57,219 nt of DNA from Ruminococcus sp. (GTDB taxonomy: Bacteria > Bacillota > Clostridia > Lachnospirales > Lachnospiraceae). The notes below the pieces were generated by a model. It was not told where the DNA came from, ran no database searches, and saw only the letters and a list, made by a program, of their open reading frames with translations. This document shows positions 1,298-10,161 of the stretch, piece after piece. Made by a program: the position numbers and the translations under genes. Every line of letters starts with the position of its first letter. Within the stretch, counting starts at the first letter, position 1. Location: positions 1 through 57,219 of the forward strand of contig JAMPIB010000018.1 of NCBI GenBank assembly GCA_023663085.1, given 5' to 3'.

Positions 1298-2476
1298 TCA
1301 GTTCTCATACGCTGTCATAATTGCCTGATAGATACCGGTGGCGATCTTCTCGACATAGTCTTCTCTGTTTAGCAAAATAGCCTCCTGTCCGTTGCTGACA
1401 TAACCGACACGGATCGTTGCCGCCGGGACAGTAGCCTGGTTGATGACCGCATCTTCCTCCGCCGATTCCACGAGCCCGTTCGCCTTGCCGCTGATAGCCG
1501 TAACGACCTCGCGTTCCAGCAGATCGGCCAGTTCTATACTGCCGAATCCGGGAATGAAGAATTTACTGTTATATACGGCCTCCGTGCCATAGATCTTGGT
1601 ATCTTCGTTTTCATTGACTTCAATACGGATCAGCATATCCGCTCTGGCCGCATTAGTCAGCCCAATGCGGTTTTCCTCGGAAGGATTGCTGTCATCCATT
1701 CTTGTATAATAAACTTTGATATCCGTCTCATCCAGTTTTTTCTTGAGGGCACGCGCAATTTCGATGGTGATATTTTTCCCCTCCAGATCGCCGGAAACGG
1801 CTCCTGTCTCATCTGCACCATAAGCCGGATCAATAACGACAATCCTGTCATATACTTCCTTGGGCGGAACAAATTCAATATAGAGTTTACCATCCTCGAA
1901 AATACTATGGTATTCATAAACATCATTTAAGTGGAATTTCAGCCAGAAGGTATCTTCTCCACTCTCATAATAGCCGTCCATGACCGCGTTACGGTTTCCA
2001 TAGACGCCCTGTGTCTGATAAAAATCCTCATAGGCTTTCGTTTCTGTGACCTGGCTGATGCTCACCCACAGTTCCTTGTCCATATAGTGGTTTTCCACCG
2101 CCACATTCTCCGCCTTGACTTCCGTATGCAGGGGAATGCAGAAATAGTTCATTTCCTGCCCGCTCTGCGCAAATATAATGGCATTTTCGGCATTGACTGC
2201 CGCCTCCTGCGTCTGTGCTGTTTCCTGTATGCCGGTTTCGCTGTTTTGCGCGTTGTTTTCGCTGTTTTGCGTGCTGTTTTCGCTGTTTTGCGTGCTGTTT
2301 TCGCCGCTTACTCCGCCCTGTGTGCTCTGTACCACTTCATCCTGCGCCACATCCGCGATGACAACAAGCTTGTGTGTCGAGTAATAAAAAATTGACGCAA
2401 GGGCACAAACAGTAAACAGGCACGTATAAATTGCTGTTCTTTTCATAAGTCGGTTCTGCTGCATTTTACTGATCAC
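1298..2476 (-). CDS. Amidase_3-like protein, probably catalytically inactive
   Basis: A 392-residue protein with one membrane segment (about residues 13-31), a low-complexity linker repeating NSENSTQ/NSENNAQ (about 58-82), a beta-rich middle region and a C-terminal N-acetylmuramoyl-L-alanine amidase (Amidase_3) fold from about 210. The fold is recognisable from VVIDPAYG, the GKNITIEIA helix, YYTRMDD, NAARAD and GYVSN. The catalytic residues of the family are not there: the His of DPGHGG is Tyr219, the Glu of the G..EK motif is Gly233, the His of SIHxN is Glu286, and the Glu before GF is replaced in TIRVGY. So it may bind wall or a partner without cleaving. GTG 2476 has AGGA eight bases upstream; ATG 2464 is an alternative. 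It overlaps the methyltransferase gene by 11 bases. Confidence 0.82.
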   Translation of the reverse strand: MISKMQQNRLMKRTAIYTCLFTVCALASIFYYSTHKLVVIADVAQDEVVQSTQGGVSGENSTQNSENSTQNSENNAQNSETGIQETAQTQEAAVNAENAIIFAQSGQEMNYFCIPLHTEVKAENVAVENHYMDKELWVSISQVTETKAYEDFYQTQGVYGNRNAVMDGYYESGEDTFWLKFHLNDVYEYHSIFEDGKLYIEFVPPKEVYDRIVVIDPAYGADETGAVSGDLEGKNITIEIARALKKKLDETDIKVYYTRMDDSNPSEENRIGLTNAARADMLIRIEVNENEDTKIYGTEAVYNSKFFIPGFGSIELADLLEREVVTAISGKANGLVESAEEDAVINQATVPAATIRVGYVSNGQEAILLNREDYVEKIATGIYQAIMTAYEN

Positions 2477-3632
2477 GCCTCTCTTCCTGCTGTCTGCTGT
2501 TACGACGGGGCGGTTTAGGCCCCATGAACTGGTAATAATATGTTTTCATCATGCCGTTATAAATTTTGCGGTTCTTATCCGCCCTGCGCCCAATGTACTT
2601 CTCAGCCTGTTCATAGCTGGTGATGATATACATAGACCACGAATCCAGCGCCGCAAAGCGCTCACCGAGTGTATGGTAAAGAGCCGGCAGGTTCTCCTTA
2701 TCCTCCAGTCTCTCTCCGTAAGGCGGATTGGTGATCAGAAAACCGTATTTTTTGGCATGGCTGAGCTGATCCACACTTTTACGCTGAAAATGTATCATAT
2801 CCTCCACGCCCGCCAGCGCAGCGTTTTCTCTGGCCGCCGCCACCATTTTATCATCAATATCATATCCCTGTATATCGGGCTGCACATTCTTATCCACCAG
2901 GGAATCGGCTTCATCCATAGCGTGATACCAACACTTGCGCGGTATGATATGCTGCCAGTCTTCCGCGGTAAAACTGCGGTTCATGCCGGGCGCCATATGT
3001 GCCGCTATCATGGCCGCTTCGATTGGAAAGGTACCGCTGCCGCAAAAAGGATCGACCAGTATCCTGTTCCCCTTCCACGGTGATAACATAAGTAACGCCG
3101 CCGCCAGATTTTCCGCGATCGGCGCTTTGGCCGTAAGTTTTCTATATCCTCTTTTATGTAATGATTCGCCTGTCGTATCCAGTCCCACCGTCACCTCGTC
3201 TTTCATCAGAAAAACACGGACAGGACAGGATACTCCGTCTTCCGGGAACCATTCTTTATGATATACCGATCTTAACCGCTCTACCATCGCTTTTTTCATA
3301 ATAGACTGTATGTCTGATGGACTGAACAGCCTGCTCTTGATACTGGCCGCCTTGGCAACCCAGAATCTGCCATCCGGCGGAATATACTCTTCCCACGGCA
3401 GGCTCTTTGTCCCCTGAAAAAGTTCTTCAAATGTTTCCGCATGGAAACTGCCGATCTTTATCAACACTCGTTCCGCCGTGCGCAAAAAAACGTTGGCCCG
3501 GCAGAGTGCCTCTTTTTCACCGCTAAAAGTCAGCCGGCCATCTTCCACGGAAGATATCTCATATCCCAGATCTGTAATTTCTTTTTTCAGTACTGCCTCC
3601 AGGCCGAAATGGCATGGCACGATAAACTCCAT
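2466..3632 (-). CDS. THUMP-domain class I RNA methyltransferase (RlmL/YpsC type)
   Basis: A 388-residue S-adenosylmethionine-dependent RNA guanine-N2 or related methyltransferase. A THUMP RNA-binding domain occupies about residues 45-155. The Rossmann methyltransferase domain shows VDPFCGSGTFPIEAA (SAM loop, about 193-207) and the catalytic NPPYGER (about 303-309). This layout matches the N-terminal half of E. coli RlmL and Bacillus YpsC, which act on 23S rRNA, but the exact base cannot be told from sequence. The C-terminus is very basic (PKPPRRNSRQQEERRDQ), which fits RNA contact. It is first in the operon running to 178; a GGGA site lies upstream of ATG 3632. Confidence 0.88.
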   Translation of the reverse strand: MEFIVPCHFGLEAVLKKEITDLGYEISSVEDGRLTFSGEKEALCRANVFLRTAERVLIKIGSFHAETFEELFQGTKSLPWEEYIPPDGRFWVAKAASIKSRLFSPSDIQSIMKKAMVERLRSVYHKEWFPEDGVSCPVRVFLMKDEVTVGLDTTGESLHKRGYRKLTAKAPIAENLAAALLMLSPWKGNRILVDPFCGSGTFPIEAAMIAAHMAPGMNRSFTAEDWQHIIPRKCWYHAMDEADSLVDKNVQPDIQGYDIDDKMVAAARENAALAGVEDMIHFQRKSVDQLSHAKKYGFLITNPPYGERLEDKENLPALYHTLGERFAALDSWSMYIITSYEQAEKYIGRRADKNRKIYNGMMKTYYYQFMGPKPPRRNSRQQEERRDQ

Positions 3633-5512: not shown

Positions 5513-5671
5513 TTAGTAGTTGTTCTTCTGGCTGTTCTGCGCATTGCTGCTGGAACTGTTCTTAGAATTGTTCTTCTGGTTGTTCTGCGCATTCTGGCTG
5601 TTGCAGTTGTTAGCCTTGTCCTGCTGTTTTTCACTGTTCTGCGAATTCTGGTTATAATCATTCTTTGACAT
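5513..5671 (-). CDS. Small Asn/Gln/Ser/Lys-rich protein, gamma-SASP-like
   Basis: A 52-residue protein, MSKNDYNQNSQNSEKQQDKA and onward, ending SQKNNY. It was found by reading the minus strand, where AGGAGG sits eight bases before ATG 5671. It is almost free of hydrophobic residues and consists mainly of Asn, Gln, Ser and Lys, with one Cys. The composition resembles gamma-type small acid-soluble spore proteins (SspE), which serve as amino-acid stores, though no SspE repeat can be claimed. Upstream there is a good match to a sigma-G forespore promoter, and a terminator follows directly, so it is a single-gene unit. The function remains inferred. Confidence 0.72.
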   Translation of the reverse strand: MSKNDYNQNSQNSEKQQDKANNCNSQNAQNNQKNNSKNSSSSNAQNSQKNNY

Positions 5672-5706
5672 CTTGCATACCTCCTGATTGTTTTTTGTTA
5701 CAGAAA

Positions 5707-5737
5707 TAGTATTGCAAGTTTCACCGGAAAGTATTCA
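5707..5737 (-). promoter_or_regulatory. Sigma-G-like promoter of the small Asn-rich gene
   Basis: Minus strand TGAATA (5732-5737), an 18-base spacer, then AATACTA (5707-5713). The Bacillus sigma-G consensus is close to TGMATA-N17/18-CATACTA, so one base differs in the -10. The predicted start site is about 30 bases before the ATG. Confidence 0.5.
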
Positions 5738-5816
5738 ATGGCCATATAGGTCTTTAGTACTATTTTTTTATATATTTTCACCAAAATAGCGCATGGTACT
5801 TTGGTACTATTTTAAA

Positions 5817-5844
5817 TTGCATTTTTGTTTTTTTGGTATATAAT
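5817..5844 (+). promoter_or_regulatory. Promoter for candidate small RNA
   Basis: Perfect TATAAT at 5839-5844 with a weak -35 TTGCAT at 5817-5822 (16-base spacer). The start site would be G5851, exactly where the first hairpin of the RNA begins. Direct copies of GTACTATTTT lie upstream near 5757 and 5802 and could be a binding site. Confidence 0.55.
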
Positions 5845-5850
5845 ATAGAT

Positions 5851-5950
5851 GTAGATAGAAATACCCCTTCATTTTTCTATCTGCAAACCCTTATATATTA
5901 ATTATTTATACTCCCCTTAATAGCCCATTGTTTTCAATGGGCTATTTTGT
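5851..5950 (+). ncRNA. Candidate structured small RNA with C-rich loops
   Basis: A non-coding stretch of about 100 bases with its own promoter and terminator. Hairpin 1 pairs GTAGATAGAAA (5851-5861) with TTTCTATCTGC (5874-5884), eleven pairs with one G-U, around a loop carrying ACCCCUUC. A single-stranded linker carries ACUCCCCUUAA (about 5910-5920). Hairpin 2 pairs AATAGCCCATTG with CAATGGGCTATT around TTTT and is followed by a T-rich tail, an intrinsic terminator on the plus strand. The two C-rich unpaired motifs could pair with Shine-Dalgarno sequences, as known for RsaE/RoxS-type RNAs of Firmicutes. The 3' hairpin contains the stop codon of the convergent gene at 5942. No Rfam family was recognised. 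Confidence 0.55.
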
Positions 5951-6397
5951 ATTATTTTGAAATACTTTTACGATAAGCAATACGACAAGACCCACGATGA
6001 TGACCGGTGCAAACAGAGAAATGAGCGACGTGGCGATACCGATCACTACGATGACCGCCACCGTTATGATGACCATCAGCAGCCAGCCGGGCAGCATAAG
6101 ACCGCCACTGAAACTCCTGCCTGCACGGCTGCCGGAATCGTCAGCTATCTCTTCATCATATTCCTGATTGGAACCGTAAGAAGCACCGGCACGTTTATTG
6201 GCCTCGATAATGCTCTTAGCCAACAGTCTCGGATCACCAAGTGTCAGAAGGACTTCTTCTTCTGTTTTGCCTTTCTGGATCTCGGAGGCAATATATTCCT
6301 CATAATAGCGCACGTTCTCCGCTACCTGCGAACTGTTCAGACCACCGGCGAGCGTTCTCTGCAATTTTTCAATAAATTCGTTTTTATCCATTTCCAT
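5942..6397 (-). CDS. DUF1700/HAAS-domain membrane protein
   Basis: A protein of about 151 residues. Its N-terminal helical region (MEMDKNEFIEKLQRTLAG, YYEEYIASEIQKGKTEEEVL, LGDPRLLAKSI) is the HAAS/DUF1700 signature found in anti-sigma-like and PadR-linked membrane proteins. It ends in two close hydrophobic helices (WLLMVIITVAVIVVIGIA and VIIVGLVVLLIVKVF). The start was set at ATG 6397, where AAGGA is about ten bases upstream; the longer frame would run through the upstream terminator. No PadR regulator is adjacent, so the partner is unknown. The stop codon lies within the terminator hairpin of the convergent small RNA. Confidence 0.7.
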   Translation of the reverse strand: MEMDKNEFIEKLQRTLAGGLNSSQVAENVRYYEEYIASEIQKGKTEEEVLLTLGDPRLLAKSIIEANKRAGASYGSNQEYDEEIADDSGSRAGRSFSGGLMLPGWLLMVIITVAVIVVIGIATSLISLFAPVIIVGLVVLLIVKVFQNNTK

Positions 6398-8607: not shown

Positions 8608-9824
8608 TTATTCTACGGTTACTGCCGGATAAGCTTCAGCTACAGCCGTCTTGAAGTCTGCGATAGCTGTGTCTTTGTCCTTTTCACCTTTTGCATATGC
8701 TGTTACCTGTGTATCAAGTAACTCATTAACTTTCTGGTCATATGCACTCATCCAGGATACGTCTACATCTTCTGCCAGAGGAGCGAAGATAGAGATAAAG
8801 TCCTGACCGCCTAAGAAGTCGTATGCACCCTTACCAGCATCAGACAGATTCTTCATAGCTGCCTTGTTGTTTACATAGTCAAGAGTCTCTTCGGAAAGTT
8901 TCTCCATAACTGCTGTATCACAGCAAAGAGTTCTCATGATCGTACCAGCAAGTTCTGTATCAGAACATCCTGCTGTTGCACCGAACCATGTACCGCCCCA
9001 GTAGAAAGGAGCCGGACCCTGGCACATGTTCCAAAGACCATATGTGCCTTCGCCTGCTGCTTCACCGCCGCAGTTAGCCTTGATCGTCCAGTGTAAGAAC
9101 CATGTACATCCGAAATAACCGAATACAGCGTCAGTAGAAGGGCCAGCGTTCCATTCGTCAGACCACTGTGCAGTCTTCTGTGTTAAGTCTTCCTGCTCTA
9201 ATGTCTTAACAACGTCCATGTACTCTTCCATAGCAGCGTCCATATGGAATACGCCATCAGAAGTTACCCACGGGTCAGTCTTGTTGGACATGAATGTGTT
9301 TACAACGTCACCGTTAGAAGAAAGGATTCTTGTTGCATCACCGGATTTTTCCTTAATTTCTCTTGCTGTTGCAAGGAAGTCATCCCAGGAACCGATCTTA
9401 GCCTGCATTTCTTCAGGGCTTGTTACGCCAAGAAGGCTTTCTGCGAGGTCAGATCTGTAGATGAAGGAACCAGGACAAGCCTGCCATGATACACCTTTTA
9501 AAGAACCATCTCTCTGATCTGTAGCGATTGTAATTGTGTAAGGATACATCTCTGTCAGATCAGCATCTGTGATACCACAGTCCGTTACAGGGATCGTGAA
9601 ATCGCTGTTCGTATACTTCATGATATAACCAGCTTCGAAAGCGATCATATCAGGATAGTCTTCTGCGTCAGGAGTCTGTAATAACTGGTCGATCTTCTCC
9701 TGGTAAATTGCAGAGTCACCAACGTTTACATATTCGATTCTGTCTTCGATCTCAGGATAAACTTCATACACATAAGCAAGTCTTTCCTGTACTTCTGTGT
9801 TCCAGGAGTAGATATAGAATTTAT

Positions 9825-9833
9825 CCCCCCCCC
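9825..9833. repeat. Nine-base C/G homopolymer at the frame break
   Basis: Nine C on the plus strand (nine G in the message) at the junction of linker and binding domain. Tract lengths of 8 or 11 would restore the reading frame; 9 or 10 close it. Confidence 0.9.
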
Positions 9834-9836
9834 GCT

Positions 9837-9956
9837 GCGGATGTGTCTGCTGCCGCGTCATCTGCGGATGTATCTGCTGCTGCATCATCTGCGGATGTGT
9901 CTGCTGCTGCATCATCTGCGGATGTGTCTGCGGATGTATCTGCTGCTGCAGAATCA
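9837..9956. repeat. 27-bp tandem repeats in the lipoprotein linker
   Basis: Units of 27 bp at 9837-9863, 9864-9890, 9891-9917 and 9930-9956, with a 12-bp partial copy at 9918-9929. Each begins GCGGATGTRTCTGCTGC on the plus strand and encodes ADDAAADTS-type linker units in frame, so copy changes alter linker length without breaking the frame. Confidence 0.88.
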
Positions 9957-10161
9957 TTTGTTGTTGCACTGTCTGATGCACTGTCGTTTCCACCGCAGCC
10001 AACAAGCAGGCTTGCTACCATAGCTGTAGAAAGAAGTGCACTAAGTAACTTTTTCTTCATTTGATTGTTTCCTCCCTTTGAGAATTTTTGATGTAACATT
10101 GCTGTTACTCGTTACTTTTGCATTTATAAGATTATCAGTTGCCTGATATAAATGCCGTTCT

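Follow-up and report, generated by a model that had tools for sequence, protein, structure and literature searches.

Positions 5817–5954 of the window (the whole stretch of 57,219 nucleotides that was analysed) raise the question of whether a small regulatory RNA (sRNA) is encoded there on the plus strand and, if so, how it would act. Letters and folding together outline a complete locus running from promoter to terminator. A -10 box, TATAAT (5839..5844, plus strand), is followed by a predicted RNA start at G5851, the first base of an 11-pair 5' hairpin (5851..5884; arms 5851–5861 and 5874–5884) with the C-rich ACCCCUUC in its 12-base loop, a structure indicated by both folding and covariation. 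Next on the same strand comes an unpaired linker (5885..5918), recognized by its conservation, where two C-rich motifs, ACCCUU and ACUCCCCUU, flank an AU-rich stretch; AAACCCUU and ACUCCCCUU both lie within it, and positions 5899–5918 (TAATTATTTATACTCCCCTC) form a nearly invariant 20-base core. The locus closes with a plus-strand intrinsic terminator (5919..5954) predicted from folding, in which 5919–5930 pair with 5935–5946 (12 pairs) around a UUUU loop, followed by the U-rich tail UUGUAUUAUU; its stem letters vary among relatives while pairing is maintained. The initial annotation had listed the TATAAT box, the start at G5851, the 11-pair hairpin, the linker, and the 12-pair hairpin with T-rich tail, and all of these were confirmed in the letters and by folding. 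Folding of 5851–5950 gives -31.2 kcal/mol, whereas dinucleotide shuffles average -9.47 (sd 2.27), for a z of -9.57, and none of 200 shuffles matched it. There is no start codon inside the RNA ahead of 5928, and a core pattern search found a single copy of the sRNA in its own genome.

Conservation was examined first of all within the genus. A DNA search with 5750–5955 over 98 genomes, including its own, gave matches at E ≤ 1e-19 in 43 of 59 same-genus relatives and none in the other 16, many genomes being incomplete. Of the best 30 loci, 28 contained the whole RNA, two at contig edges (L027 and L032) were dropped, and removal of three identical rows left 25 distinct ones, which were aligned. 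Little or no variation is seen in ACCCTTATA, TATACTCCCCT, and most of the loop, while the stems change in step. With the structure taken from folding, 93.4% of alignment cells are paired, compared to 84.0% after shuffling (0 of 500 as high); both-side changes occur in 9 of 20 pairs (shuffled 6.0, with 2 of 500 reaching 9); and covariation scores 0.346, compared to 0.177 for shuffled alignments (0 of 500 reaching it) and at most 0.119 when the structure is slid. One measure is contrary: further pair types number 20, whereas shuffled alignments average 22.2, and 496 of 500 equal or exceed the observed value. There are 21 G-U cells to 8 A-C cells in the genus alignment, and 54 to 7 in a fitted family-wide one, which favours the plus strand as the RNA. 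Where the initial annotation had allowed that the hairpins or C-rich motifs might prove unconserved in relatives, the opposite was found, with covarying stems and hardly any change in the C-rich loop and linker. Judged from the sequences compared, the locus is a true RNA gene, as indicated by its conservation in the genus, stem covariation, G-U strand bias, and near-constant unpaired motifs.

A covariance model built from the 25 distinct genus rows recovered the RNA in 113 of 299 genomes of the family, nearly all from different genera. Across the order it had matches in 26 of 295 genomes, five of them from two other families and with weak E-values (1e-4 to 0.006). The core alone, at up to two mismatches, was found in 113 of 250 family genomes (reversed pattern, 4 of 250), and pattern and model combined gave 122 of 250, some of these (e.g., G346) represented just by a two-mismatch pattern match. 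A draw from the class yielded core matches in 11 of 291 genomes, three from the same family. Outside the order there were eight in 278 genomes, all with two mismatches, compared to six for the reversed pattern, which is background. In the distant family loci, the 5' hairpin varies in length and letters and the terminator stem varies wholly, while ACCC(C)UUAU..UAAUUAUUUAUACUCCCCUC is constant. An alignment of 48 distinct family rows has both-side changes in 20 of 20 pairs and a score of 0.798 (shuffled 0.220; slid, at most 0.142), although it was fitted to the structure model, so covariation is tested more cleanly at the genus level. Most family genomes with a match have a single copy of the core. 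Exceptions are G261, with four exact copies and one with two mismatches on several contigs, and G258, G198, and G125, with two each, the G125 pair lying 1.8 kb apart on one contig. Collections of plasmid and phage records, each searched with one query, gave no match. Overall, the best explanation appears to be a stand-alone sRNA gene of about 100 nucleotides, handed down vertically within the family.

The remaining parts of the gene were surveyed in 94 loci ("units"), 27 of them from the same genus. These are what remained of 96 after removal of two false out-of-order matches (L126 and L127) without the sRNA architecture; because the units were collected by means of core or model matches, the counts that follow are only a partial test of these remaining parts. 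A terminator stem of at least six pairs is present in all 94 (11 of 96 in a control 80 bases downstream), followed in 73 by a tail with at least four T among eight letters, and the terminator loop contains CCC in 56, the window's own being UUUU. A 5' hairpin of at least six pairs within eight bases of the linker is present in 91 units, by a lax test that 96 of 187 windows 200 bases away also pass, and its loop is C-rich or contains CUUC in 67. No conserved reading frame was found: linker lengths differ by numbers that are not multiples of three (measured in 93 of 94 units), and a closed ORF of at least 15 codons is present in 18 of the 94. Of 87 units, 70 have their closest downstream ORF (at least 100 codons) on the opposite strand, 14 have it on the same strand, and three have none, so the sRNA is mostly not the leader of a downstream gene.

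The promoter deserves separate mention. The -35-like hexamer TTGCAT (5817..5822, plus strand), separated from TATAAT by 16 bases, is poor, matching TTGACA at only 3 of 6 positions, and the sRNA promoter does not appear in the promoter-scan output. It is nevertheless kept in relatives: the -10 box has at least five of six letters in 91 of 94 units, compared to 707 of 1880 controls made by shuffling the letters of these upstream stretches, and a TTG stands 15–19 bases ahead of it in 72. Farther upstream there are two copies of a direct repeat (GTACTTTRGTACTATTTT / CTTTRGTACTATTTT), 47 bases apart on the plus strand: GGTCTTTAGTACTATTTT at 5749..5766, a possible regulator site, and GTACTTTGGTACTATTTT at 5796..5813, ending three bases ahead of the -35 hexamer. 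A loose 12-base form of the repeat is found within 170 bases upstream in all 27 units from the same genus and in 8 of the 67 others. In the genome itself, up to two mismatches, only the two promoter copies and one other place match; at three mismatches there are six matches, compared to 27 for the reversed control, giving no sign of a wider regulon. The repeats look like a candidate site for a regulator of the sRNA gene.

Gene neighborhoods were compared in a set of 94 units not quite the same as that used for architecture, with 1.5 kb of flank viewed. A frequent neighbor of the locus in other genera is an RlmL/YpsC-like rRNA methyltransferase (Pfam; in the window at 2466..3632, minus strand), relatives of which flank 58 units, 54 on the opposite strand and four on the same strand. 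Genera negative for the sRNA generally have this gene too (26 of 29). Upstream of it, in 24 loci with about 1.4–1.5 kb of flank (only about 0.5–0.75 kb for L170 and L183), there was no constellation of motifs like that of the control L173, although six had single scattered motifs. With the neighborhood kept and the motifs not found in the negatives, the sRNA seems to be inherited at one neighborhood and to be absent in about half of the genera sampled.

Two other features of the window are recorded here as observations in their own right. A divergent 52-codon ORF rich in N, Q, S, and K (5513..5671, minus strand) resembles, by eye, a small spore protein; upstream of it is a sequence (TGAATA...CAATACTA) that looks by eye like a promoter for forespore sigma-G, and similar small ORFs adjoin the methyltransferase in other genera (L167, L169, and L173, also by eye). 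At 8608–10099 (minus strand) is a gene for a sugar-binding lipoprotein that is split between two frames, one holding the signal peptide and 27-base repeats and the other the binding domain; nine consecutive G residues (9825–9833) at the frame junction would suggest either phase variation or an assembly error.

Copies of the core are also found on contigs of a viral collection. Four contigs have it exactly, but a reversed 22-letter control also matches two, so single string matches are no proof; what distinguishes five contigs (L244, L246, L247, L248, and L249) is a terminator stem following the core, in a phage-like setting. In L244 (749–840) the module is upstream of portal and minor head genes, in L246 (675–798) it is near a phage-type transcriptional regulator and a DNA helicase, and in L247 (84–110) it is near a DNA-binding/HNH-type gene with a relative in L246, all as assigned with PHROGs; by eye, in L248 (249–272) it is downstream of a lysin/holin-like pair and in L249 (540–675) near a DNA-binding/HNH-type gene that likewise has a relative in L246. 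In both L246 and L249 the module is directly behind a tRNA gene (a tRNA-Thr and one without assigned type), with a short C-rich stretch in between. The copy in L245 is host-like and has a promoter of its own, and L250 to L255 look like chance matches. Some of the viral copies, e.g., those of L247 and L248, are at contig edges, where host flank is possible. It may tentatively be suggested, at well below even odds, that phages took up the linker and terminator of a family-wide core regulator, placing the module near structural, lysis, or late-regulator genes and in some cases as a tRNA tail, to imitate the host sRNA or soak up its targets while infecting.

As to function, the reading preferred here, with a probability of roughly 0.7, is a stand-alone sRNA of about 100 nucleotides, the CU-rich linker of which pairs in trans with ribosome-binding sites, independently of canonical Hfq. 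RNA polymerase would start near G5851 and stop past 5946. The 5' hairpin would shield the 5' end and display ACCCCUUC in its loop; the linker (ACCCUU...UAUACUCCCCU) would contact the G-rich ribosome-binding sites of several mRNAs, with an additional contact possibly made by the C-rich terminator loop present in over half of the units; and translation initiation would be blocked as a result. In the genus, and in some others, a putative regulator would bind the GTACTTTRGTACTATTTT repeats at the sRNA promoter. A search for canonical Hfq (PF17209) was positive for the E. coli and B. subtilis controls but for none of 250 genomes of the family, so the pairing would work without it, although the family might have a diverged homolog.

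Against 353 Shine-Dalgarno (SD)-bearing start regions in 451 kb (~13%) of the genome, the linker pairs with a mean energy of -10.4 kcal/mol, compared to -6.9 for gene interiors. However, 21 of 60 dinucleotide shuffles of the linker reach the observed start-region count, so the pairing potential comes from its runs of C and not from its exact order, and pairing of the C-rich motifs with SD sequences, as proposed in the initial annotation, remains a prediction. The near-invariance of the AU-rich part (UUAAUUAUUUAUA) also exceeds what SD pairing needs, and counts against it. The best off-locus complement of the core, 16 bases long, covers the SD, spacer, and start codon of a minus-strand chemoreceptor gene (G000:C95:15973–15992, i.e., L136:1499–1520) with MCP signalling (PF00015) and sCache domains. 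The energy change for this complex is -20.5 kcal/mol, and there is a second contact, ACCCUU with AAGGGU. Homologs of the chemoreceptor (E ≤ 1e-30) occur in 56 of 60 genomes of the genus. Among the best 30 loci, in 16 of which a script assigned the start (at least two wrongly, L204 and L215), only the closest homologs, L195 and L196, pair nearly as well as the chemoreceptor gene itself, and the other assigned ones do not, all energies being calculated with the window's linker. The start-site pattern at up to three mismatches is no more frequent than its reversed control (26 and 28 of 61 genomes), and off-locus core matches over 250 family genomes are about twice as many as in the control (~8 vs. 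4), so the chemoreceptor pairing may be due to chance. Neither the start-site pattern nor the comparison of the linker with the 353 start regions identified a conserved target; the chemoreceptor start site may serve as a lead, its pairing not being widely conserved among the sequences compared. The chemoreceptor leader also contains a nine-G run. A possible link to motility was not used (flagellin in 71 of 122 genomes with the sRNA and 58 of 128 without; Fisher p = 0.044, uncorrected for kinship).

Other readings of the same conserved RNA need to be weighed against pairing in trans. The initial annotation had pointed out that the transcript is antisense to the 3' end of a DUF1700 gene, assigned here to the HAAS-domain proteins (Pfam PF22564; 5942..6469, minus strand). 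This is literally true: the gene converges on the terminator, its stop codon is at 5942–5944, the sRNA overlaps its reading frame by about 13 bases, and HAAS relatives flank 52 of the 94 synteny units, 51 of those 52 being on the opposite strand and facing the sRNA. That the sRNA is a cis-antisense regulator of this gene is scarcely plausible all the same, and antisense control looks incidental, because 42 of the 94 units have no such neighbor within 1.5 kb, the overlap falls on the terminator stem, the letters of which vary, and the conserved letters are those of the linker, away from it. A search of genome contigs with the HAAS protein led to one distant locus (L039). It is also very improbable that linker and terminator serve as an all-purpose 3'-end or termination element, available to any transcript, and not as a regulator. 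The module behind tRNA genes on L246 and L249, with its intervening C-rich stretch, would fit such an element, as would the freely varying 5' hairpin, but a general terminator would recur many times per genome, whereas this one is single-copy in its own and most positive family genomes; a -10 box accompanies it in 91 of 94 units; and letters ahead of a mere terminator would not stay invariant.

A further alternative is that the sRNA acts mainly by binding a protein (a chaperone, nuclease, or translation regulator) or another RNA through its AU/CU-rich linker, and not mainly by SD pairing. The whole linker, including the AU part, is nearly invariant across genera, as would suit a protein site; its order is no better than that of shuffles at pairing with start regions; and, with canonical Hfq not found, some other partner is conceivable. 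Against this, Hfq was the only candidate protein partner searched for, with the result already given, and several separate C-rich motifs in loops and linker are a known signature of SD-pairing Gram-positive sRNAs (PMC4132741). On balance such a mode of action is considered unlikely. Pairing in trans remains the preferred reading, and the locus has the features by which CU-rich, SD-pairing Gram-positive sRNAs are recognized: by sequence, its own promoter and intrinsic terminator in an intergenic position, and conserved unpaired C-rich motifs.

The absence of a known family match, as expected in the initial annotation, was borne out by the Rfam scans: at gathering score the whole window yielded only six tRNAs, and 20 loci of distant members likewise had only tRNAs reaching it, while at E up to 10 positions 5650–6000 gave only weak matches, the lowest E being for rli22/LhrC. 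The RsaE/RoxS type of design suggested there is supported by form, i.e., conserved unpaired C-rich motifs, covarying stems, and a terminator. RoxS/RsaE pair C-rich single-stranded motifs with SD sequences, and the iron-sparing sRNAs FsrA and IsrR resemble the window sRNA in having several unpaired C-rich patches. RoxS/RsaE (Bacillus, Staphylococcus) are also conserved between Gram-positive genera, but they are not among the Rfam results to E 10 in 5650–6000, and FsrA and IsrR have no Rfam match in the sRNA region. A role for UCCC in both RsaE and FsrA is described in PMC4132741.

The closest likeness is to LhrC of Listeria (RF01457), which had the best plus-strand Rfam score (24.3 bits, E 0.07). 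LhrC is also about 110 nt long (model length 111); it consists of a 5' stem-loop, an unpaired stretch, and a terminator, and its CU-rich (UCCC) motifs, which occur redundantly in the loop, the linker, and the terminator loop, were all three shown to bind target (PMC4132741). The window sRNA has the CU-rich loop and linker; its terminator loop is UUUU rather than UCCC, although CCC is found in this position in 56 of 94 units. In contrast, 24.3 bits is far under the gathering score of 80, LhrC is not among the matches at E ≤ 0.5 in the 20 distant loci, and its promoter and locus are unlike those here. LhrC is further characterized by LisRK-dependent induction and lapB-type targets. The passages on LhrC available from PMC4132741 give five copies in Listeria, compared to one in this genome, and do not include the invariant AU-rich core. 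Since the Rfam models fail and copy number and locus differ, the sRNA most likely has an LhrC/RoxS-like design while being a member of neither family. The core letters were not found in print in the literature searched, which covered few subscription papers, nor was any sRNA of this kind in the family, in a search that took in part of the C. phytofermentans TSS paper (PMC5171806).

We rate this as a new RNA family whose functional kind is known; what makes it unusual is how widely it occurs, how little its core varies, that canonical Hfq is apparently lacking, and that it has copies on viral contigs. These copies raise the question of exploitation by phages, and the sRNA offers a test bed for sRNA action in bacteria in which no canonical Hfq was found. 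The gene is readily located by means of its 20-base core. Mostly single-copy, and with this core kept almost unaltered in roughly half of the genera sampled from a very large family (most likely the Lachnospiraceae), the sRNA, unnamed in the sources searched, would be a core regulator of common gut bacteria.
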